Of a stretch of DNA of 64,000 nucleotides, positions 5,473 to 23,807 are shown one piece after another. The DNA lies in contig NZ_PGDQ01000014.1 of the NCBI RefSeq assembly GCF_003073135.1, positions 1 through 64,000 on the forward strand, read 5' to 3'. Positions within the stretch are counted from its first letter, which is position 1, and every line of letters starts with the position of its first letter. The notes under the pieces are model-generated. The model did not search any database and was not told where the DNA came from. It saw nothing but the letters and a program-made list of their open reading frames with translations. The stretch is from Euzebya rosea. Its GTDB lineage: Bacteria > Actinomycetota > Nitriliruptoria > Euzebyales > Euzebyaceae. The position numbers and the translations under genes were made by a program.

Positions 5473-6334
5473 GGGCCTCCGAGGATGGGTCGGCCCACGG
5501 CGCCTGGTCGTGCTGGTGGTGGCGCTGCTCGCCGTGGCGATGGTCCTCTCCGGCGTGGCCAGCGGGGCCTGCGAGAGCCTGGAGTTCTACCGTCGACGCG
5601 ACCCCGGTGGCCCGTCGGTCGTCGACCGGTTCGACGGGACCGAGCTGGACGATGCGCGGTGGACCCGCTGCTACTGGTGGGACGACGATGGCTGCACCAA
5701 CCTCGGCAACGCCGAGCTGCAGTGGTACCTGCCCGACCAGGTCCAGGTCGCCGACGGCGTGGTTCGGCTGGTGGCCGACGACCGGCCCCACACCACCGAC
5801 GACGGCACCCGCTGGAGCCACCGGTCGGGGATGATCACGACCGGACCGCCGACGCACGACGGCGAACCGCGGTTGGCGTTCACCTACGGCGAGGTCGAGG
5901 TCCGCGCGCGGGTCCCCGCCGGCAGCGGCCTGTGGCCGGCCATCTGGATGCTGCCCGCCACGACGGAGTCCCGGCCCGAGATCGACCTGATGGAGGTGCT
6001 CGGCGACTCCACCGACATCCTGCGCATGCACGTGCACTACGTCGACGGCGACGGGGAGCGCCAGTCGCTGGGCCAGGACGTGGACGTCGAGGACCTCGCC
6101 GAGGACTTCCACACCTACGGCCTGCGGTGGGCACCCGACCGGCTGGAGTTCCTGCTCGACGGCCGGACGGTCTGGGAGGTCACCGAACCCGACGCGATCC
6201 CCCACGAACCGATGTACCTGCTGGTGAACCTCGCTGTCGGCGGCGAGTGGCCGGGCCCGCCCGGCCCGGACACCTCGTTCCCGACGTCCTTCGACATCGA
6301 CGAGGTCGTGATCCGTCCCCGGTGCGGCTCGTGA
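5465..6334 (+). CDS. Membrane-anchored or secreted GH16 glycoside hydrolase
   Basis: GTG 5465 is chosen because GAGG lies nine bases upstream; GTG 5459 is the alternative. The 289-residue product has an N-terminal hydrophobic segment (about residues 13-34), so it is exported or anchored. The rest is a beta-jellyroll GH16 domain with the catalytic EIDLME at residues 172-177: first Glu as nucleophile, last Glu as acid/base. Flanking WPAIWMLP and the later EFLLDGRTVWEV segment are typical of laminarinase/lichenase-like members. In glycan operons such enzymes trim, release or remodel the polymer outside the cell. Substrate linkage (beta-1,3 or 1,4) cannot be told. Confidence 0.85.
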   Translation: MPEGLRGWVGPRRLVVLVVALLAVAMVLSGVASGACESLEFYRRRDPGGPSVVDRFDGTELDDARWTRCYWWDDDGCTNLGNAELQWYLPDQVQVADGVVRLVADDRPHTTDDGTRWSHRSGMITTGPPTHDGEPRLAFTYGEVEVRARVPAGSGLWPAIWMLPATTESRPEIDLMEVLGDSTDILRMHVHYVDGDGERQSLGQDVDVEDLAEDFHTYGLRWAPDRLEFLLDGRTVWEVTEPDAIPHEPMYLLVNLAVGGEWPGPPGPDTSFPTSFDIDEVVIRPRCGS

Positions 6335-8697
6335 CACAGGTCGAGGAGGCCACGACCCGGTCGGGCGGCACACGGGCCCGCACGGCGGCGACGGTGCGCG
6401 CCCTCGTCGAGGATCCGCTGGCGCGCCACGGGTACGTCATCGGCCTGTCCTCCCTCGCCACCTCGGTCCTCGGCGTGGCCTTCTGGACCGTCGCCGCCCG
6501 ACGGTTCGACGCCGCGACGGTCGGGATCGGCGCCGCGCTGGTCGCCGTGCTCGCGCTGCTGGGCAACATCGCCCAGCTCGGGTTGGTCAACGGGTTCAAC
6601 CGGTACCTGCCCGTGGCCGGTGGCCGGGCACGATGGTTCCTGCGCACCGGCGGGACGACCGCAGCGCTCGCTGGATGGCTGGCGGGTGCGATGTTCCTGC
6701 TGGGCCTGTCGTGGTGGGCACCGGACCTCGTGCCCGCACTGGAGGGCACCAGCGCGTGGTGGTGGTTCCCGGCCGTGGCTGCCTGCTGGACCCTGTTCGT
6801 CGTGCAGGACGGCGTCCTGGCCGGGTTGCGGCGCAGCTCCGTGCTGCTGGCCTCCAACCTCGGCTACGCCGTCGCCAAGCTCGTCGTGCTCCTGGTGCTG
6901 CCCGTGACCGCGGCGCTGGCCGTCTTCTGGGCGTGGATCGCGGCGTTGCCGCTCGTCGTCGCCACGGTCTGGGCCGGCGTCGCCCGATCGCTCCCGCCGT
7001 CGTCTCCCGGGCCCGATACGGCGCCCGAGGACCTGACGCTCGGGGGTGTCGGACGGTTCCTGACCGTCGACCACGTTGCCTCGCTGCTGTACACCGCGTC
7101 GCAGGGACTGCTGCCGGTGCTGCTCCTCGCCCACGTGGGCCCGGCCGGCACCGCCTACTTCTCGCTGACCTGGTCGACGGCGTACGTGCCGTACCTCCTG
7201 GGACGGGGTCTCGGTATGTCGTTGCTGACCGAGGCCGCCGCCGCGCCGCACGACGCCACCCGCCTGGCGCTGCGATCCCTCCGTCGCGGGGCCGTGGTCC
7301 TGGTGCCGGCGGCGGTCGTCGGCGTGGTCGCCGCGCCGCTGTTGCTGTCGCTGTTCGGGCCGGAGTACCGCGCCGCCGGCACGACCCTCCTTCGCCTGCT
7401 GGTGGTGGCCACCCTCCCCGGGCTGGTGGTGACCACCGGGATGGCCGTGCTGCGCGCCACCGGACGGTACCGGCGGCTGCTGCTGGTCTCGGCCGGGGTG
7501 TCGGTGGGTGTGCTGGGCGGCGCCGGGCCGGCCGTGGAACGGGCAGGGATCACCGGCGTCGGCTGGCTGTGGCTCGGCCTGAGCCTCCTGGCAGCCCTCG
7601 CCCTGAACGACACACTCCGCGAATCCCCCATCCGAGCGATCCTCACCAGCCTGTGGCTGCACCTGCGCGGGATGCGTGTCGTCGGGGGAGGGCCCGGACC
7701 GGCCCCCGACCCGCTGTCGACCTTCCCTGCGCTCCGGGGACGTCCACTGGACCTCGAGGCCCTGCCCGGTGGGGGCGAGGTGGCGATCAGCGCCGTGACC
7801 GACCCGGGGTCCGGGGACCGGCTCGTCGTGCGAACCGCGTCGACACCGCACGGGACCGCGGCGATCCTCGCTGCCGGCGACGCCCTGCGCAGGCGCACCA
7901 CGCGGCGGCTGGACGGCCTGGTCGGGCGCCCCACCCTGATCGACCTGACCACCGAGCCGTTCGCCGCCAGCGTCGAGACGCGGCTGGCCGGCGTCCGCGC
8001 GGACCACCTCGTCGGCAACGGCCTGTCGCGCCGCGAGGCCACGGAGATCGCCGCTCGGACGCTGCAGCACCTGCACCGGGACACCACGTCCCCCACGACG
8101 CCCGCCACACGGCAGCGATGGGTGGAGGAGACCAGCCGCCCGCTGGTCGAGGCGCTCTCCGGGTCGGGTCGTGTGGCCGCGCTCGAGCGGCTCCGGGAGG
8201 TCCTCGACCCGCTCACGGCCCGGCTGGCGTTCGCGGCCATCGACCACGCGGTCGTCCACGGCGACGCCTGGCTGGGCAACGTGGTGATCGATCCGGCGCG
8301 GCTGGGCGAGCTCCGGCCCGGCTCGGCGTGGTGGGAGGGCCGCACAGCGGGCCCCCACGCGCCGGTCGGACTGGTCGACTGGGAGGCGTCCGCCCTCGGC
8401 AACCCGCTCGTCGACCTCTCGACCCTCGTGCTCAGCAGCCGGCTGGCCACGCACGGTGGCCAGCTCGGCCCACATGTCGTCGGGCTTCGGGCCGGCGGCG
8501 GCCTGGAGCCGTGGGAGCAGGCGATCCTCACCGCCGCGGGAGCCGGGGCGACCGACCCCACCGCCGGCCTGCCGACCCTCGAGGACGCCGTGTTCCTCGG
8601 CTGGCTGGGCCTGGTCACGGCAACGATCCCCACGTCCCCCCGATACCAGCCGGGCACCCGCTGGTTCGCGCTCAATGTTGATCTCGTCCTCCGCTGA
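6331..8697 (+). CDS. Polysaccharide flippase fused to an aminoglycoside-phosphotransferase-like kinase
   Basis: GTG 6331 overlaps the previous stop. The 788-residue protein has two parts. Residues about 20-440 form around twelve hydrophobic segments of the Wzx/MVF flippase type (start RHGYVIGLSSLATSVLG), which move lipid-linked sugars across the membrane. After a proline-rich link, residues about 470-780 form a kinase-like fold. It has HGDAWLGN (catalytic Asp645, metal Asn650) and LVDWEAS (Asp683), the Brenner and DFG-equivalent motifs of APH-type small-molecule kinases. No stop or frameshift separates the parts. The kinase half should face the cytoplasm and could phosphorylate the cargo or its lipid carrier; that is inference. 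An assembly artefact is unlikely because both frames are continuous. Confidence 0.78.
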   Translation: MTQVEEATTRSGGTRARTAATVRALVEDPLARHGYVIGLSSLATSVLGVAFWTVAARRFDAATVGIGAALVAVLALLGNIAQLGLVNGFNRYLPVAGGRARWFLRTGGTTAALAGWLAGAMFLLGLSWWAPDLVPALEGTSAWWWFPAVAACWTLFVVQDGVLAGLRRSSVLLASNLGYAVAKLVVLLVLPVTAALAVFWAWIAALPLVVATVWAGVARSLPPSSPGPDTAPEDLTLGGVGRFLTVDHVASLLYTASQGLLPVLLLAHVGPAGTAYFSLTWSTAYVPYLLGRGLGMSLLTEAAAAPHDATRLALRSLRRGAVVLVPAAVVGVVAAPLLLSLFGPEYRAAGTTLLRLLVVATLPGLVVTTGMAVLRATGRYRRLLLVSAGVSVGVLGGAGPAVERAGITGVGWLWLGLSLLAALALNDTLRESPIRAILTSLWLHLRGMRVVGGGPGPAPDPLSTFPALRGRPLDLEALPGGGEVAISAVTDPGSGDRLVVRTASTPHGTAAILAAGDALRRRTTRRLDGLVGRPTLIDLTTEPFAASVETRLAGVRADHLVGNGLSRREATEIAARTLQHLHRDTTSPTTPATRQRWVEETSRPLVEALSGSGRVAALERLREVLDPLTARLAFAAIDHAVVHGDAWLGNVVIDPARLGELRPGSAWWEGRTAGPHAPVGLVDWEASALGNPLVDLSTLVLSSRLATHGGQLGPHVVGLRAGGGLEPWEQAILTAAGAGATDPTAGLPTLEDAVFLGWLGLVTATIPTSPRYQPGTRWFALNVDLVLR

Positions 8698-13584: not shown

Positions 13585-13633
13585 GTGGTCTCCTCGCGAG
13601 GGCTGGACGTCAGGTCACCAGGTGGGAGTCCCC
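13579..13633. repeat. Duplicated gene-junction sequence, copy B
   Basis: Counterpart of 12513-12567, lying between the pseudokinase stop and the FHA-like gene start. A weaker third copy of the stop-plus-CGTCGAGCC element closes the 185-residue gene near 11953-11972. That suggests repeated rounds of duplication in this operon. Confidence 0.7.
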
Positions 13634-15463
13634 GCCCACCCGCGGTGGGAGGATGCGACGACGCAGCTCGTCGTGCTCGGCGTCGTCAGCAGGTCCCGTG
13701 TCGGGGAGTCCGTGCCGCTGCCGGAGGTCCGCGGTGTGGGCCGCCCGTGCCTGCCGCCAGACCTCGGGTGCGGCGGCGCGCCAGATCCCGGCCACGGCCT
13801 TCAGGAAGCCGGACCCGGTGGAGGGCCACCCCAGGGGCGGTGACCAGCTGATCCGTCCGTCCGCGTGCACGATGGCGAACTCCTGCTGGTTGGCCCCCCA
13901 GACGCTGTACCTGAGCTCCCGGACACGATCCCACGCCACCACCCGTCGGCCCTCGAGCGGCACGGCCACCCCGTCGGGCCCGGCCGTCACGACCCGCGCC
14001 CGTCCGACCGGGAGGTCCAGCCCGACCCGGTCCCCGCTGGCCACCCACGGGACCGGGGCCAGGTCCGCCGCGCTACGCAGCCCGACGTCGACCGCAACCA
14101 CCGCCGTCCGGCACCGCTTCGCCGCGGCCAGGAGGGCACCGACGTACGGCTCGGTGTAGAGGCCGGTGCACGCGGCCGCCGCCGTCAGTGCATGCGAAGG
14201 CGCCGGCACGTGCAGGGGGGCCTCCACGAAGGCGCGCCACCGCAGGCGTTGCCCACCGATGTGGACGGCGTCACCCTCCTGCAGGAACGTGGCCGAGGGG
14301 CAGGCGACCCGGTGCGGAGGTTGCCCGTCCGACGCGAGGAGGGTGCCCTCGTCGCGGTTCTCCAGCACGACGCCCGTGCCCATCGGACGCACGGTCGTGT
14401 CGGTCCCGATCCTGACCTCGCGGGCGACCGGCCAGTGGTCCCCTCCGTCGGTCACCAGCCACCCCGCAACGGACGGACGCGGGATCGGCCGCGGGGCGGG
14501 CGCATGTGGGGCCGGCTGGGGGGAGGGCGACGGCGGGACCGAGAGACGTTCGCGGTCCGGGCCCTTCCCCCCGACCGCCACAGCCTGCGGGGGTGGGGAC
14601 CACGATCCGACCTCGGTGACGGGCTGTCCGAGCTGCGCCTGGACCGCACGGATCATCGCACCGGCGTCGGTGGGGTCCGGCCGGTCCGCCGGATCGAGCG
14701 CGGTCAGCGTGCGGATCAGCGCGGCGACGGGCTGCGGGAACCCCTCCGTGGCGAGGTCCGGCACGTCACCGGTCCTCACGCGCGTCATCAGCTGCACGAT
14801 CGACTCCTCGTCCTGCCCGATGTCGGCGAGTGCCCGCCCGCGCAGCGCATGGGCCAGCACGGCCCCGAGTCCGTAGACCTCCGTTGCCACCGTGGGACCC
14901 CCTCCCTCGAACCACTCGGGGGCTGCGTACATGCTGGGCACGCGACGGCTGTCCCCGTCCCGCAGCAGCAGGTCGACCCCCACACCGCACCACGTCGGCT
15001 GGCCCCACGCATCCGTCCGGACGCTGTCCGGTGCGACCCAGCCGATGAGTGACCCGCAGGCGTGGACCGCGGCCATGCCCGCCGCCAGGCGCACACCGAG
15101 GGCCAGCGTGGCCGCCACGTCGAGCGGTCCTTCCTCCAGCTTGGTGCGCAGGCTGCCGCCGGCCCGGATCTCCTCCACCAGGTAGCCAGCGCCCGCGTCG
15201 GTCACACCGGCTGCCCAGACCGCCGATACGTGCGGGTGGGCTCGCGTGGTCAGCAGCCCCGCGGTCCTGCGGAGGCCGTCGAGCTCTGCAGGGTCGCCGC
15301 CGAAGGGCGACACCACGCGCACGGCAACGTCGTGGCCGGTCGGCATGGTCGCCCTGTGGACCGCCCCCCGGTCGCCCTCGCCGATCAGCCTCCCCGGTCC
15401 GAGGTCGGGGATGCCGAGGTCGACGGGCGTCGGCTCGGATGCAGGAGTCGATGGATCACGCAA
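13610..15463 (-). CDS. Ser/Thr pseudokinase with C-terminal FHA-like and shared domain
   Basis: Start TTG 15463 has GGAG three bases upstream; no ATG or GTG is in frame. The 617-residue protein has a protein-kinase-fold N-terminus (about residues 20-280) with a glycine loop GEGDRGAVHRA and an APEW motif (residues 181-184). The catalytic residues are missing. The VAIK lysine is Arg49. The HRDLKPEN region reads IGWVAPDSV (Trp142 for Asp, Ala144 for Lys, Ser147 for Asn). The DFG region reads GVG (Gly160 for Asp). A proline-rich linker leads to an FHA-like module and a domain shared with the downstream gene. It is therefore probably a binding or scaffold protein. First gene of a three-gene minus-strand operon, divergent from the diguanylate cyclase gene. 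Confidence 0.75.
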   Translation of the reverse strand: MRDPSTPASEPTPVDLGIPDLGPGRLIGEGDRGAVHRATMPTGHDVAVRVVSPFGGDPAELDGLRRTAGLLTTRAHPHVSAVWAAGVTDAGAGYLVEEIRAGGSLRTKLEEGPLDVAATLALGVRLAAGMAAVHACGSLIGWVAPDSVRTDAWGQPTWCGVGVDLLLRDGDSRRVPSMYAAPEWFEGGGPTVATEVYGLGAVLAHALRGRALADIGQDEESIVQLMTRVRTGDVPDLATEGFPQPVAALIRTLTALDPADRPDPTDAGAMIRAVQAQLGQPVTEVGSWSPPPQAVAVGGKGPDRERLSVPPSPSPQPAPHAPAPRPIPRPSVAGWLVTDGGDHWPVAREVRIGTDTTVRPMGTGVVLENRDEGTLLASDGQPPHRVACPSATFLQEGDAVHIGGQRLRWRAFVEAPLHVPAPSHALTAAAACTGLYTEPYVGALLAAAKRCRTAVVAVDVGLRSAADLAPVPWVASGDRVGLDLPVGRARVVTAGPDGVAVPLEGRRVVAWDRVRELRYSVWGANQQEFAIVHADGRISWSPPLGWPSTGSGFLKAVAGIWRAAAPEVWRQARAAHTADLRQRHGLPDTGPADDAEHDELRRRILPPRVGGDSHLVT

Positions 15464-19099: not shown

Positions 19100-19654
19100 T
19101 CAGGAGGGGTCGAGGCCCAGCAGGCCGTCGGTCTCCGCGTGGAGCGTTGCGGACAGGTCCTCCCGGGAGAGGAGGGTCCACGACTCGTCGAGGTCATCCA
19201 GCGCCCGATCCCCTTGGGCGTGGTCCAGGTCGAGGGTGATCACCAGGCAGGCGTCGCCGAGGCCCTGGGTGATCCAACCGCCGATGCCGCCGCTGTCGGT
19301 TCGTTCGAGATGCTGCTCCAGATGCCCGCGCTCCGGCGTGGACACCGGGGCCTCCTCCTCGTCCAGCACACAGGTGTCGCCGATGGACAGCACAGCAGCG
19401 TCGAGGCCGACCACGGCGTGGCTGAGGGCGATCTCGGCGTGGCCCGACTCGACGTCGAACGTCGTCGTGCGGTAGCCGTAGGGCATCTCGGGGAAGCACG
19501 GGATCGACTCGGCGTCGGGGACGGCCTGTGCGATCAGCACCAGCGCGTTGGTGTCGGCGCACATGGCGGTTGCCGAGGGCAGGTCCTGCCCGCAGCCGCC
19601 GACGGCCAGGGCCGCGAGGACGACCGCGACCATCCGTCCGGCGGGGCCGCTCAC
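19100..19654 (-). CDS. Small lipoprotein of the PAP2-kinase operon
   Basis: GTG 19654 overlaps the upstream stop (GTGA); an internal ATG seven codons later (19633) is an alternative. The 184-residue product has a short hydrophobic start and a lipobox ending AVGGC, so it is probably lipid-anchored outside the membrane. The mature region is acidic, with four further cysteines (MCADTN, IPCFPEMP, DTCVLDEE, DACLVI) that may pair. I recognise no family. Its coupling to the PAP2-kinase gene suggests an extracytoplasmic partner of that protein. Confidence 0.65.
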   Translation of the reverse strand: MSGPAGRMVAVVLAALAVGGCGQDLPSATAMCADTNALVLIAQAVPDAESIPCFPEMPYGYRTTTFDVESGHAEIALSHAVVGLDAAVLSIGDTCVLDEEEAPVSTPERGHLEQHLERTDSGGIGGWITQGLGDACLVITLDLDHAQGDRALDDLDESWTLLSREDLSATLHAETDGLLGLDPS

Positions 19655-21384
19655 AGCAGCCCCACCGTGTCGAACGCGACCCACGTTCCCAGCGCGGCGG
19701 CGAGGACGACGGCGACCGTGGCGACCGCAGCCACGATCCGGCGACGGTCCCACCGGTGGATGCGGATCGGCTCGCGGTCCGGGGCGAGCTCGCGCAGCCG
19801 GTCCCGGACGGCCCACCCGTCGTCGTCCAGGAGGCCACGGAGCTGGGAGGGGATCGCGAACCCGTCCGTGGCCGCGAGCGCCTCGGCGATCTCCTCCGGC
19901 TCGAACAGGCGGAGCGCCCGGCGGTGGACCCGATCGGGACCTGCGGCCAGGCCGAGCATCAGCACCATCGCGCCCAGGTCGACCGCCTGCCGCCAGGGGG
20001 TCGGTCGCAGCTGGGCGAAGGCCACGTCGATGAGGGTGACGCGGTCCCCGTCGACCAGCAGGTTGCCCGGCTTGATGTCGCGGTGGGCGATGCCCGCGGT
20101 CCACAGCTGGTCGACCACGGACAGGCAGGCGTCGATGAGCTCGTCGGACACCTCCTCCTCGACGTCGAAGTCGTGGCCGGCGGTGAAGGAGAAGGTGATC
20201 AGGTACTCCTGCTCGGGGGTGATCTCCACGATGCCGTGGGGCGCAGGGACCGCGACGCCGGCATCGCGCAGCACCCGGGTCAGGTGGTCCTCGTACTGGA
20301 CGAGCTGCCGGACGCTGGCGAACGGCGTCTCGTTCTCCAGCCGTCCGTACATCAGCAACCGGACGAGCTTGTAGAGCCGGTCGGACCGCAGGTGCTGACG
20401 GGTGTACAGCTTCGCGAAGAGGGTCCGTGGGCCGTCGGGCCCGTCGACCTCGAGCCGCAGCGGCGTGGATCCGGCGGACCCCTCCTCGCCGTGCAGGTCC
20501 ACCCCGCTGACCGTCAGGCCGAGCTGGTCGGCGATGCCCGTCCGGATCGCCTCGACGCGACGCGGCGAGAGGGTGACGTGCGCGTGTTGCCCCCGCCGGT
20601 ACTCCACCGGGAACCGTGAGTGCGGCACGACGAGCCGGGTGAGGGCGAAGACGACGCCGGCGGCGATCGCGCAGGCGACCACGACATCGCTGATGTGGTC
20701 GACGCCGAGGACGACCCGGGCCAAGCCGATCAGCACCGCGACCCCACCGACGGCCAACGCGCCGTACCGACGGATCGGTCCGTGCGGGGCGAGGACCCGG
20801 AGGGAGCCCAGCACGGTGACCATGAGCGCCGCCATGGGGCGCGAGGGGTGGGAGAACCCGTCCCAACCGGCCACGATGTCGACCATCGGCCGTGGCCGTT
20901 GGATCGCGAAGTTCATGGCCTGCGCGGCCCACTCCACCAGCAGCAGGGCGGCGACGAAGACCGCCAGGTGACGCAGCCGACGCACGGCCAGCAGCACCGC
21001 GATGGTGCCCCAGCGCAGCACGGCCACGAACACCTCGTCGGTCAGGCCGTTCAGCACCCGGGCCACGGCGGTGGCGGCGTCGGTCCGCTGGGCCACCATC
21101 CACCGGCCCGCCAGCACGTCCACCCGCTGCACCCAGTCCGGCTGCAGGTAGACGAACGACAGCAGGGAGAAGGTCACGCCGACCACGACGACCAGCGCCC
21201 AGCGCACCCCCGCCCACCACTGCTCGGGCGGCAGGGGTGGGGGTTCGCCGGTCGGGCGGCGGCGACGTCCGCCGCGACGCAGGGGCGAGTGGCCGGTGCC
21301 CTCGTCGGTGACGCCATCGTCGACCCGGTCCAGCGACGGCCGCTCCGCGCTGGACTCCGCGCCAGCCAGCTCCTGGGCGCTCAC
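19651..21384 (-). CDS. PAP2-type membrane domain fused to a protein-kinase-like domain
   Basis: GTG 21384 overlaps the upstream stop. The 577-residue protein has five or six hydrophobic segments in residues 60-275 with a PAP2 (lipid phosphatase) pattern: QRPRPMV, SHPSRPMAA and LGVDHISD. The second motif lacks the usual PSGH histidine, so phosphatase activity is doubtful. A cytoplasmic kinase-like domain follows (about 290-540). It has LFAKLY (ATP lysine), AHRDIKPGNLL (Asp436) and LIDVAFAQL in place of DFG, so the catalytic core is largely kept. One C-terminal hydrophobic segment ends the protein. A second such fusion lies divergent at 22557. Possible role: lipid or prenyl-phosphate handling with phosphorylation; substrate unknown. 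Confidence 0.75.
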   Translation of the reverse strand: MSAQELAGAESSAERPSLDRVDDGVTDEGTGHSPLRRGGRRRRPTGEPPPLPPEQWWAGVRWALVVVVGVTFSLLSFVYLQPDWVQRVDVLAGRWMVAQRTDAATAVARVLNGLTDEVFVAVLRWGTIAVLLAVRRLRHLAVFVAALLLVEWAAQAMNFAIQRPRPMVDIVAGWDGFSHPSRPMAALMVTVLGSLRVLAPHGPIRRYGALAVGGVAVLIGLARVVLGVDHISDVVVACAIAAGVVFALTRLVVPHSRFPVEYRRGQHAHVTLSPRRVEAIRTGIADQLGLTVSGVDLHGEEGSAGSTPLRLEVDGPDGPRTLFAKLYTRQHLRSDRLYKLVRLLMYGRLENETPFASVRQLVQYEDHLTRVLRDAGVAVPAPHGIVEITPEQEYLITFSFTAGHDFDVEEEVSDELIDACLSVVDQLWTAGIAHRDIKPGNLLVDGDRVTLIDVAFAQLRPTPWRQAVDLGAMVLMLGLAAGPDRVHRRALRLFEPEEIAEALAATDGFAIPSQLRGLLDDDGWAVRDRLRELAPDREPIRIHRWDRRRIVAAVATVAVVLAAALGTWVAFDTVGLL

Positions 21385-22514
21385 GAGTCTGCCGTGGCCC
21401 GGGCCGAGGGCCGTGGGTCGGGGGACGGCGGCGATGACGCCTCGTCCTCTCGCTCCCAGTCGTCGTTGCGGGCCCACAGCAGGTAGGCCAGCCCCCCGAG
21501 CGGGATGGGCAGCAGGTAGCTGATCATGCGGAAGACCAGCACGCCGGCGACCACGGCGTTCTTGTCCGCACCGAACTGGGTGAACACCCCGACGTAGCCG
21601 AGCTCGATGAGCCCGACCCCGCCCGGCGTGATCGGCACGGCGGTGATCAGCCTGGCGAAGGAGAACCCGGCCAGCGCCTCGATCCAGGTCAGGTCGTCGG
21701 ACTCGATGCCGATGGCGCGGAGGGTGGCGAGCAGGACGAGGAACAGCGACGTGTGGCCCACCACGGTGGCGAGGGTCAACCAGTGCCACCGGTTCGACAG
21801 CAGCTCGCGGGAGTCCTCACGGAACGCCGCAGCCCGGTCGGCGAGGTGCGTCGGCGGGGTCCGGGAGAACAGCCGCATGACCCGGGTGGCTGCCGACTGG
21901 ACGGTTCGGCCGATCCAGCGCGCCACCCCCTCGCTGCGCAGCAGCCCGATCAGGCCGGCGATGCTGACGGCCAGGACGACGAGTCCCATCACGGCGGTCA
22001 GGACCAGTCGCTGGTTGGCGTCGCCGGTGAAGGCCAGCAGAGCCAGCGCCACGACGGGCATGCCCAGCTTCACGAAGTTGTTCCAGATCCCGGTGACCAC
22101 GACGTACCGGCCGATCTCGGCCGCCGAGAAGCCCCACGACCCGAGGATCGTCGCCGACAGGCCCACGCCGACGCCACCACCGGCGGGGACGGTGTTGGCC
22201 ACCGCGGTGGACGCCAGGTTCATCACCGCGGCCTTGCCCAGCGTCAGGCCGGGCAGCGCCGCGACGGCCACCAGCCAGTAGGTGATCTGGTTCCAGACGG
22301 TCGCGGCCAGCAGCACGGCGATCGCGGTCCCGCTGAGGCCACGGATGGTGTCCCACACCTCCGCCATGTCCGAGACCTGGGGGAGGATGACGACGAACAC
22401 ACCGAGGACGACGGCAGCTGCCAGCCCGAAGGACAACCAGCGCCGCCACGTGGGCGGGCCGTCGTCCGTCGCTCGGTCGTCGGCGGCGGACCGGCGCGTC
22501 TCCTCGGTGCTCAC
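21381..22514 (-). CDS. UPF0104/LPG-synthase-type transmembrane protein
   Basis: GTG 22514 has GGAGG upstream. The 377-residue protein has about eight hydrophobic segments with the two signature stretches of the lysylphosphatidylglycerol-synthase transmembrane family (PF03706): NTVPAGGGVGVG and PITPGGVGLIELG. Members lacking the aminoacyl domain are thought to move lipids or lipid-linked compounds across the membrane. This one has no extra domain. It is the first gene of a three-gene coupled operon (then the PAP2-kinase fusion, then the lipoprotein) and lies only 42 bases from the divergent second PAP2-kinase gene, so the two are likely co-regulated. Confidence 0.8.
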   Translation of the reverse strand: MSTEETRRSAADDRATDDGPPTWRRWLSFGLAAAVVLGVFVVILPQVSDMAEVWDTIRGLSGTAIAVLLAATVWNQITYWLVAVAALPGLTLGKAAVMNLASTAVANTVPAGGGVGVGLSATILGSWGFSAAEIGRYVVVTGIWNNFVKLGMPVVALALLAFTGDANQRLVLTAVMGLVVLAVSIAGLIGLLRSEGVARWIGRTVQSAATRVMRLFSRTPPTHLADRAAAFREDSRELLSNRWHWLTLATVVGHTSLFLVLLATLRAIGIESDDLTWIEALAGFSFARLITAVPITPGGVGLIELGYVGVFTQFGADKNAVVAGVLVFRMISYLLPIPLGGLAYLLWARNDDWEREDEASSPPSPDPRPSARATADS

Positions 22515-22556
22515 CTGGTGCCTCCGGGCGTGTTCGAGAACGCCGTGCAGTGGGGC

Positions 22557-23807
22557 ATGTTGCGTCCCATGACCACGCGATCAGGTGCGATGACGCAGGC
22601 CCGGCGACGACACGGGTCCGATGTCGTCCGGGTGGTGCTCGGGTTGGCCACGCTCGTCCTCGCCTCCCTGCCGGTCAGGCCCGACTCGATCGGTCGGGTG
22701 GAAACGGGCGCGTTCGACCTCGTGAACGGCCTGCCCGACCACCTGTACCCAGTCCTGTGGGGACCGATGCAGCTCGGTTCGCTGGTCGCGGTGCCGCTGG
22801 TCGTCGGTGCGGCGCTGATCACGCGTCGCCGGGGACTCGCGCTGGAGGCCGCGGTCGCAGGGACCACCGCCTGGACGCTGGCCAAGGTCGTGAAGGACGC
22901 CTACGGCCGTCCGCGACCGGGGGGCCTGCTGGAGGAGGTGGCGTTCCGCGGCGGCGAGCCGGTCGGCTTCGGCTTCGTGAGCGGCCACACCAGCGTGGCC
23001 TTCGCCCTGGCGACGGCCGCCACCCTGTACGTCCCCCGGCGGTGGCGGGGAAGGCTGTTCGCGATCGCCGCCCTGGTCGGCCTGTCCCGGATGTTCGTGG
23101 GCGCACACCTCCCCCTCGACGTCGTGGGTGGGGCCGGGATGGGCTGGGCCATCGCCGCGGCCGTGCGGCTGGTGCTGGGTGCGCCGACCGGACGACCGTC
23201 GGTCGACCGCGTCCGGACGGGCCTGGCCGGGCTGGGCATCACCGCCGCGGCCATCGAGCCCGTGGACGTCCCCGCCGCCACGTCGGCGGTCTACCGGGTG
23301 ACCGGCACGGACCACGGGGACCTGTTCGCCAAGGTCGTCGGCGACCGGCCGCAGGACCGGGACCTGCTGTACCGGTGGTGGCTACGGCTCCGCGGTGTGC
23401 CCAGGGGCGCCCAGCGCTTCGCCTCACCGAACCTGCAGGTCGAGTTCGAGGCCACCCGGACGCTGGCCGCTGCCGCCGCCGGCGTGGCCGTTCCCGAGGT
23501 GCGCTACGCCGGCCCGCTGGACCCCGAGCACGCGGTGCTGCTGACCGGTTGGGTCGACGGCACCCCGATCGACCGGCTCGAGGCCGTCGACCCCGCGACC
23601 GTCACCGAACTCCAGCGGCAGGTCGAGCGGCTGCACGCGGCCGGGCTGTCCCACGGGGACCTCGTCGGCGCCAACGTACTGGCCCACCGGCACGGCGTGA
23701 CGCTGGTCGACTTCGGTGACGCGGCGATGCTCGCGAGCGACGCGACGCTGGCGGCTGACCGCACACAGGCCGACCGGCTGCTGGACGACGTCGCCTCGCG
23801 CCGCTGA
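22557..23807 (+). CDS. PAP2 phosphatase-type domain fused to a kinase-like domain (second copy)
   Basis: ATG 22557 is taken; ATG 22569 or 22590 are possible. The 416-residue protein has a canonical PAP2 domain (about residues 20-205): KDAYGRPRPGG, VSGHTSVAF and SRMFVGAHLPLDVVGG, all catalytic residues present. It should hydrolyse a phosphate monoester or pyrophosphate on a lipid. A cytoplasmic kinase-like domain follows (about 215-410) with LFAKVV, SHGDLVGANVL (Asp368) and LVDFGDA. This resembles RIO/Bud32- or KdkA-type small kinases. Compared with the 577-residue fusion, this copy keeps PSGH-type catalysis and a true DFG but is shorter. A terminator follows. Confidence 0.8.
   Translation: MLRPMTTRSGAMTQARRRHGSDVVRVVLGLATLVLASLPVRPDSIGRVETGAFDLVNGLPDHLYPVLWGPMQLGSLVAVPLVVGAALITRRRGLALEAAVAGTTAWTLAKVVKDAYGRPRPGGLLEEVAFRGGEPVGFGFVSGHTSVAFALATAATLYVPRRWRGRLFAIAALVGLSRMFVGAHLPLDVVGGAGMGWAIAAAVRLVLGAPTGRPSVDRVRTGLAGLGITAAAIEPVDVPAATSAVYRVTGTDHGDLFAKVVGDRPQDRDLLYRWWLRLRGVPRGAQRFASPNLQVEFEATRTLAAAAAGVAVPEVRYAGPLDPEHAVLLTGWVDGTPIDRLEAVDPATVTELQRQVERLHAAGLSHGDLVGANVLAHRHGVTLVDFGDAAMLASDATLAADRTQADRLLDDVASRR

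Follow-up and report, generated by a model that had tools for sequence, protein, structure and literature searches.

A recurring actinobacterial gene module joins a membrane-bound pseudo-PAP2 kinase and an outer lipoprotein domain to a PF03706 membrane protein and a PAP2-family phosphatase

We analysed a 64,000-nucleotide stretch of the Euzebya rosea genome (contig NZ_PGDQ01000014.1, positions 1 to 64,000 of the forward strand; hereafter the window), concentrating on four adjacent genes that we call LIPO, A, F and B. A and B each join a PAP2-type domain to a kinase-like domain, F is an integral membrane protein of the PF03706 family and LIPO is a lipoprotein. This locus is one copy of a recurring, conserved actinobacterial module, in which A carries a complete set of kinase residues on a PAP2 fold that has lost its catalytic histidines. 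The genes and their features are as follows.

19100..19654, minus strand: LIPO, gene for a 184-residue lipoprotein.
19651..21384, minus strand: A, gene for a 577-residue polytopic PAP2-like and kinase protein.
19669..19731, minus strand: predicted C-terminal membrane helix of A, with basic residues just ahead of it, leading outside to LIPO, whether separate or fused.
19870..20577, minus strand: kinase domain of A, with K325, E365, HRDIKPGN (434-441) and D453.
20605..21207, minus strand: pseudo-PAP2 domain of A, placed by residue alignment and by its fold match to PgpB (5jki).
21244..21267, minus strand: N-terminal motif RRRRP[S/T]GE of A, predicted to be cytoplasmic and conserved among relatives.
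21381..22514, minus strand: F, gene for a 377-residue integral membrane protein (PF03706/TIGR00374; LPG_synthase_TM, AglD2/MprF-flippase-like).
22515..22556, no strand: intergenic region of 42 bases between the divergent genes F and B.
22557..23807, plus strand: B, gene for a 416-residue PAP2-kinase fusion in which both catalytic residue sets are present.
22719..23201, plus strand: PAP2 domain of B, with KX6RP, VSGH and SRX5HX3D intact.
23229..23771, plus strand: kinase domain of B, with AK, E, HGDLVGAN and DFG present.

The three minus-strand genes are tightly packed, F overlapping A and A overlapping LIPO by four bases (GTGA in both cases), so that the LIPO start codon lies inside the A stop codon. 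An earlier reading of the window from its letters and open reading frames (the original prediction) had described two PAP2-kinase fusions, a UPF0104-type membrane protein and a lipoprotein in facing operons, with 42 bases between divergent genes. The four genes lie where it had placed them and are of the kinds it named, and the gap is found between F and B. Its description of the operons as facing needs to be reversed, however: F-A-LIPO on the minus strand and B on the plus strand are divergent and stand back to back.

Pfam finds PAP2 and kinase-type matches in both fusion proteins. In B these are clear for PAP2 (E-value, the expectation value, of 2.6e-20) and accompanied by APH (4.8e-7) and RIO1 (9.9e-6), and the PAP2 domain belongs to PF01569 by score (72.9 bits against a cut-off of 27.2) as well as by having all of the signature residues. 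Its best solved relative is LpxE (6ebu, 5.1e-9), and it resembles the undecaprenyl-diphosphatase model NF047884 weakly (36.8 bits, where the cut-off is 250). The order in A is a basic N-terminal tail, a pseudo-PAP2 domain of six membrane helices, a RIO/Bud32/APH-like kinase domain and a C-terminal membrane helix; the Pfam matches are to APH (3.3e-6) and, under the curated cut-off, to PAP2 (2.3e-5). This weak PAP2 call is secured by the A-family profile and by a model alignment, since both match the B. subtilis phosphatase PgpB/YodM (5jki). The profile does so at 8.7e-17. For the model we used an AlphaFold prediction of a relative in which A and LIPO are fused into one protein of 732 residues (L100; mean predicted local distance difference test score, pLDDT, 88.8; predicted template-modelling score 0.83), and VIA-align superimposes it on 5jki with Z 21.8 and a root-mean-square deviation of 2.6 Å over 196 residues. 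Together these place A within the PAP2 fold.

The kinase domain of the same fused model aligns with RIO1 (Z 16.0), PRPK/Bud32 (15.2), APH(3')-Ia (13.3) and WaaP (12.0). At the level of family profiles both A and B exceed the APH cut-off and both fall short of the Bud32 family TIGR03724 (33.6 bits for A and 42.1 for B, against 125), while the RIO1 cut-off of PF01163 (22 bits) is just passed by B (25.7) and missed by A (16.6). A scores 24 bits against Pkinase PF00069 (cut-off 31.7) and has no Pfam match to PASTA, and it does not belong to the PknB-type receptor kinases. The C-terminal helix of A is found in 75 of 77 relatives, with a mean of 4.3 Lys/Arg residues before it and 0.5 after it; this charge pattern agrees with the lipobox of the separate LIPO genes, and the two are consistent with the kinase lying inside and LIPO outside. 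At the other end of the protein, the RRRRP[S/T]GE motif has Ser or Thr in all 68 aligned A rows, and in 29 of 33 rows of a set retrieved without peptide patterns. This Ser/Thr is a candidate (auto)phosphorylation or docking site.

The original prediction held that one copy keeps all PAP2 catalytic residues and the other does not, and this is borne out: the KX6RP, VSGH and SRX5HX3D elements of B have no complete counterpart in A, in which the general-acid His position reads Pro183 and the nucleophile His position Asp229, with Arg163 and Arg165 kept. Among 70 A proteins, Pro stands at the general-acid position in 64 and Asp at the nucleophile position in 65; His occurs at neither position in any of them, and both Arg of RPRP are invariant despite the loss of the histidines. 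Lacking these histidines, A does not qualify as an active PAP2 enzyme; a variant enzyme with Asp229 as nucleophile also seems unlikely, given the Pro at the general-acid position and the loss of the KX6RP lysine. The kinase residues of A behave in the opposite manner, as every one of the 70 proteins has the Lys (beta-3), Glu (alpha-C), HRD, Asn and metal-binding Asp. Since one of the two peptide patterns by which the 78 A relatives were retrieved contains HRDIK (21 of the 78 match the other pattern alone), the count was repeated on 33 A proteins found by a pattern-free hidden Markov model search, with the same outcome: kinase residues are kept in 32-33 of 33, the PAP2 nucleophile His in none and the general-acid His in one. 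The ATP site, on which the original prediction depended, is thus preserved in A to judge from its residues, which are present in B as well.

The two-domain relatives of B show the reverse division. PAP2 residues are kept in eight of eight such chains, and a kinase catalytic residue is lost in seven of the eight, the exception being B of the window. Two of these relatives adjoin A and F (L099:11362-12453 and L061:8160-9578) and have an intact PAP2 domain and a kinase without its Asp/Asn; in both, to judge from these residues, the kinase seems dispensable. The stand-alone PAP2 genes that neighbour A carry the full phosphatase signature in 17 of the 18 in the counted set. Because the active sites are divided in this way, each module has one kinase and one phosphatase, usually in different proteins.

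Some related genomes encode all three domains, PAP2, kinase and PF03706, in a single chain of about 800 residues. A B relative in one of them (genome G016, 42% identity) runs on in frame into PF03706, and B and F therefore resemble such a three-domain protein of Actinomycetota that has been split in two. The three-domain proteins differ from the window in that most of them lack both active sites and none of the cases seen has a LIPO domain. Both sites have decayed, for example, in L184-L187 and L197-L204. Three keep both, and with B of the window they make up the four chains seen with both residue sets.

LIPO begins with a signal peptide and the lipobox AVGGC (MSGPAGRMVAVVLAALAVGGC), which identifies it as a lipoprotein, and its four further cysteines (C32, C53, C95 and C136) are invariant in 56 relatives. 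It has no Pfam or NCBIfam match. Its predicted structure (pLDDT 88.6) resembles RseB (Z 6.9) and LpqN (Z 6.1) in the PDB, both under the clear range, and the best Foldseek E-value is 9.4e-3; we therefore claim no fold identity for it. At 20 loci LIPO is no separate gene, its domain continuing the A reading frame after the C-terminal membrane helix, and a tree of A (70 rows) forces at least four changes between the fused and the separate state on supported branches. An independent search for an open reading frame with a lipobox identified a lipoprotein gene immediately following A at 52 loci; at 35 of these its start coincides exactly with the A stop codon. A longer LIPO of ~270-290 residues, not ~190, is seen in L078, L085, L089, L095, L096, L098, L103, L105, L108, L127, L128, L141 and L152, the extra ~90 residues lying mid-protein.

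F matches PF03706 over positions 3-302 of the 302-position model (4.5e-18; 66.2 bits against a cut-off of 33.4) and TIGR00374 with 61.6 bits (cut-off 43.2). It is not an MprF: the equivalog score is 47.3 bits against 600 and covers the flippase part only, the synthase domain being missing. A flippase function has been proposed for all members of the UPF0104/PF03706 family (PMC5898192), and it is from this family assignment that F would be a lipid flippase. F shares 38-50% identity with the F genes found near A elsewhere, which makes them one orthologous group. Its own 5.5 Mb genome encodes five PF03706 proteins in total, and to the remaining four F bears no meaningful resemblance.

A scan of GTDB genomes returned at least 146 A relatives. 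The 78 loci retained from these come, among others, from isolates of Geodermatophilus, Blastococcus and Virgisporangium and from many metagenome-assembled genomes of Acidimicrobiia. The original prediction rested on the genes being conserved together in related genomes, and they are. At 75 of the 76 testable loci the next gene or domain after A is LIPO, a count for which some LIPO queries were drawn from the same loci. Of 34 fully flanked loci, 27 have an F orthologue within 5.5 kb of A and 26 an additional PAP2 gene nearby, and in Geodermatophilaceae the genes form a four-gene cluster in the order A-LIPO-F-PAP2. The orientation of the module genes varies from genome to genome, and the linkage is therefore not merely inherited gene order. 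When all neighbours within 7 kb were clustered, only F, LIPO and PAP2 recurred beyond local synteny; the acyl-CoA dehydrogenases near A in Geodermatophilaceae are an instance of the latter. Some genomes have several copies of A, up to seven (G086 and G099), and two A genes stand in tandem at L110:3305-7767 and at L081. Such copies suggest paralogues with different ligands or partners.

The most economical reading of these results, which we favour tentatively and at a little short of an even chance, is that A and LIPO would together act as a receptor-like transmembrane kinase, reading an envelope lipid phosphate through the dead PAP2 domain and tuning F and B. LIPO would sit outside, tethered either as a lipoprotein or as the last domain of A itself. 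Together with the dead PAP2 domain, which retains its phosphate-contacting arginines, it would sense in what state a phosphate-bearing lipid is found at the membrane or beyond it. From the cytosolic face the RIO/Bud32-like kinase would pass the signal on, probably by protein phosphorylation, for which the RRRRP[S/T]GE tail of A, F or an unlinked protein are candidate targets. F would carry this lipid, or a substrate linked to a lipid, from one side of the membrane to the other, and stripping it of phosphate outside would fall to B, whose place is taken elsewhere by a stand-alone PAP2 enzyme. A and LIPO would control F and the phosphatase, or be controlled by both.

Several observations weigh against the receptor-like reading. 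The module is accessory, because no A gene occurs in the three other genomes sampled from the same genus and only 16 of 198 genomes of an even phylum sample have one. F is not nearby in seven of the 34 fully flanked loci. The kinase fold is common to small-molecule kinases such as APH and WaaP, and a protein substrate is something that we infer for A. The fold matches of LIPO are weak, and any ligand binding by it is putative. We regard as rather unlikely, though with real weight, the stronger proposition that the module represents a new receptor-kinase class, in which a polytopic pseudo-phosphatase has become a lipid-phosphate receptor and is linked, by way of a RIO/Bud32-like kinase and a disulphide-bonded outside domain, to a flippase of its own and a phosphatase as partner.

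Foremost among the rivals, since the kinase fold is also that of APH and WaaP, is a biosynthetic route in which A would act as a head-group kinase; we regard this as unlikely while still giving it serious weight. The dead PAP2 domain of A would then dock a lipid-linked substrate and the kinase, like WaaP, KdkA or APH, would phosphorylate the head group, after which F would flip the product and the PAP2 enzyme would trim phosphate outside. The similarity of the fold to APH(3') and WaaP as well as to RIO favours such a route, as do the weak Kdo/APH profile matches and the four-gene order in Geodermatophilaceae; UPF0104 proteins, moreover, occur beside lipid-modifying enzymes, as in gpgSDF (GpgSDF/HexSDF; PMC12713373). 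However, genes for glycosyltransferases or other lipid-building enzymes are not regularly linked among the neighbours within 7 kb, and up to seven copies of A per genome would be odd for a single biosynthetic step. An outside domain one helix away from the kinase and a conserved Ser/Thr in a basic cytosolic tail also fit a receptor better.

The remaining explanations fare much worse. If the kinase and PAP2 domains of A and of the three-domain chains were remnants of a pure scaffold, with all activity residing in F and the stand-alone PAP2 enzymes, the many three-domain chains without either site would be accounted for, as they indicate that the architecture can outlast catalysis; but the retention of every kinase residue in 70 + 33 A proteins is not expected of a remnant, and we consider a scaffold very improbable. 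Marginally less probable still is the switch put forward in the original prediction, in which a kinase and a phosphatase within one chain alternate on the same lipid phosphate, for instance undecaprenol/undecaprenyl-phosphate. In PAP2 enzymes of this type the active site is known to face outward, while an ATP-using kinase must work on the cytosolic side. B of the window and three three-domain relatives do keep both sites, and the PAP2 domain of B is weakly like the undecaprenyl-diphosphatase model, yet the sites lie on opposite membrane faces, no lipid-alcohol kinase is known to have this kinase fold, and the pattern of loss runs against a shared function, with PAP2 residues lost from every A chain and kinase residues from all seven two-domain B-type chains besides B itself. 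Chains in which both sites survive are so rare that we reject such a switch as a general function; the lipid-phosphate theme of the prediction is the part that is supported. A defence or conflict system, to which the patchy distribution, the several copies per genome and matches to PADLOC models might point, is the least credible explanation of all, for those matches are weak, generic kinase matches limited to the kinase core, and nuclease, toxin and mobile genes are not regularly linked within 7 kb.

Two further proteins of the window carry kinase-like domains. A 788-residue protein (6331-8697, plus strand), described earlier as a flippase-kinase, does have a clear C-terminal APH-type kinase domain (residues 475-702, 1.6e-9), but its hydrophobic N-terminal part matches no Pfam or NCBIfam model, PF03706 included. 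A 617-residue protein (13613-15463, minus strand) has an N-terminal protein-kinase domain (PF00069, 1.8e-9) and is possibly a pseudokinase, because the usual HRD motif reads VHACGSLIGWVAPDSV.

With the exception of LIPO, which matches none of the profiles searched, the parts of the module come from known superfamilies, and it is their combination that appears to be undescribed: in the open-licence PMC literature we found no description of a PAP2-kinase/PF03706 gene group and no characterisation of the three-domain PAP2-kinase-PF03706 proteins. The N-terminal domains of A and B share the fold of PgpB/YodM-type phosphatases (PF01569; 5jki), and B keeps the whole catalytic signature; unlike these enzymes, both carry a kinase after PAP2, and A has the His to Pro and His to Asp replacements. 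RIO, Bud32 and KdoK have been grouped together as a loose cluster within the protein-kinase-like enzymes (PMC1821047). A has the fold and catalytic residues of this cluster and weak Bud32 and RIO1 profile matches, whereas the kinases of A and B fall under nearly every family cut-off, are membrane-bound and are fused to PAP2. The PknB-type transmembrane Ser/Thr kinases of Actinobacteria are an analogue in working principle, since they connect a kinase in the cytosol through a single membrane helix to a domain outside, as A and LIPO would; the differences are that the kinase of A is of RIO/Bud32/APH type, that a six-helix pseudo-phosphatase precedes it and that the outside domain is not PASTA. 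F, finally, is of the same family as the flippase-domain proteins MprF, AglD2 and GpgF (PF03706, COG0392), a domain that related genomes fuse to PAP2-kinase chains, but it has neither a lysyl-phosphatidylglycerol synthase nor a glycosyltransferase domain and is linked instead to a kinase, a phosphatase and a lipoprotein.

The reuse of dead enzymes as sensors is familiar among soluble signalling proteins; we know of no documented case in which an integral-membrane lipid phosphatase has been reused in this way. The proposal is testable, since Geodermatophilus, Blastococcus and Virgisporangium, which can be cultured, carry the module. If A does read a lipid phosphate, Actinomycetota would have a second route, beside the PknB-type kinases, by which the state of envelope lipids is tied to phosphorylation, and one in which the flippase and the phosphatase would belong to the same gene group as the sensing kinase.

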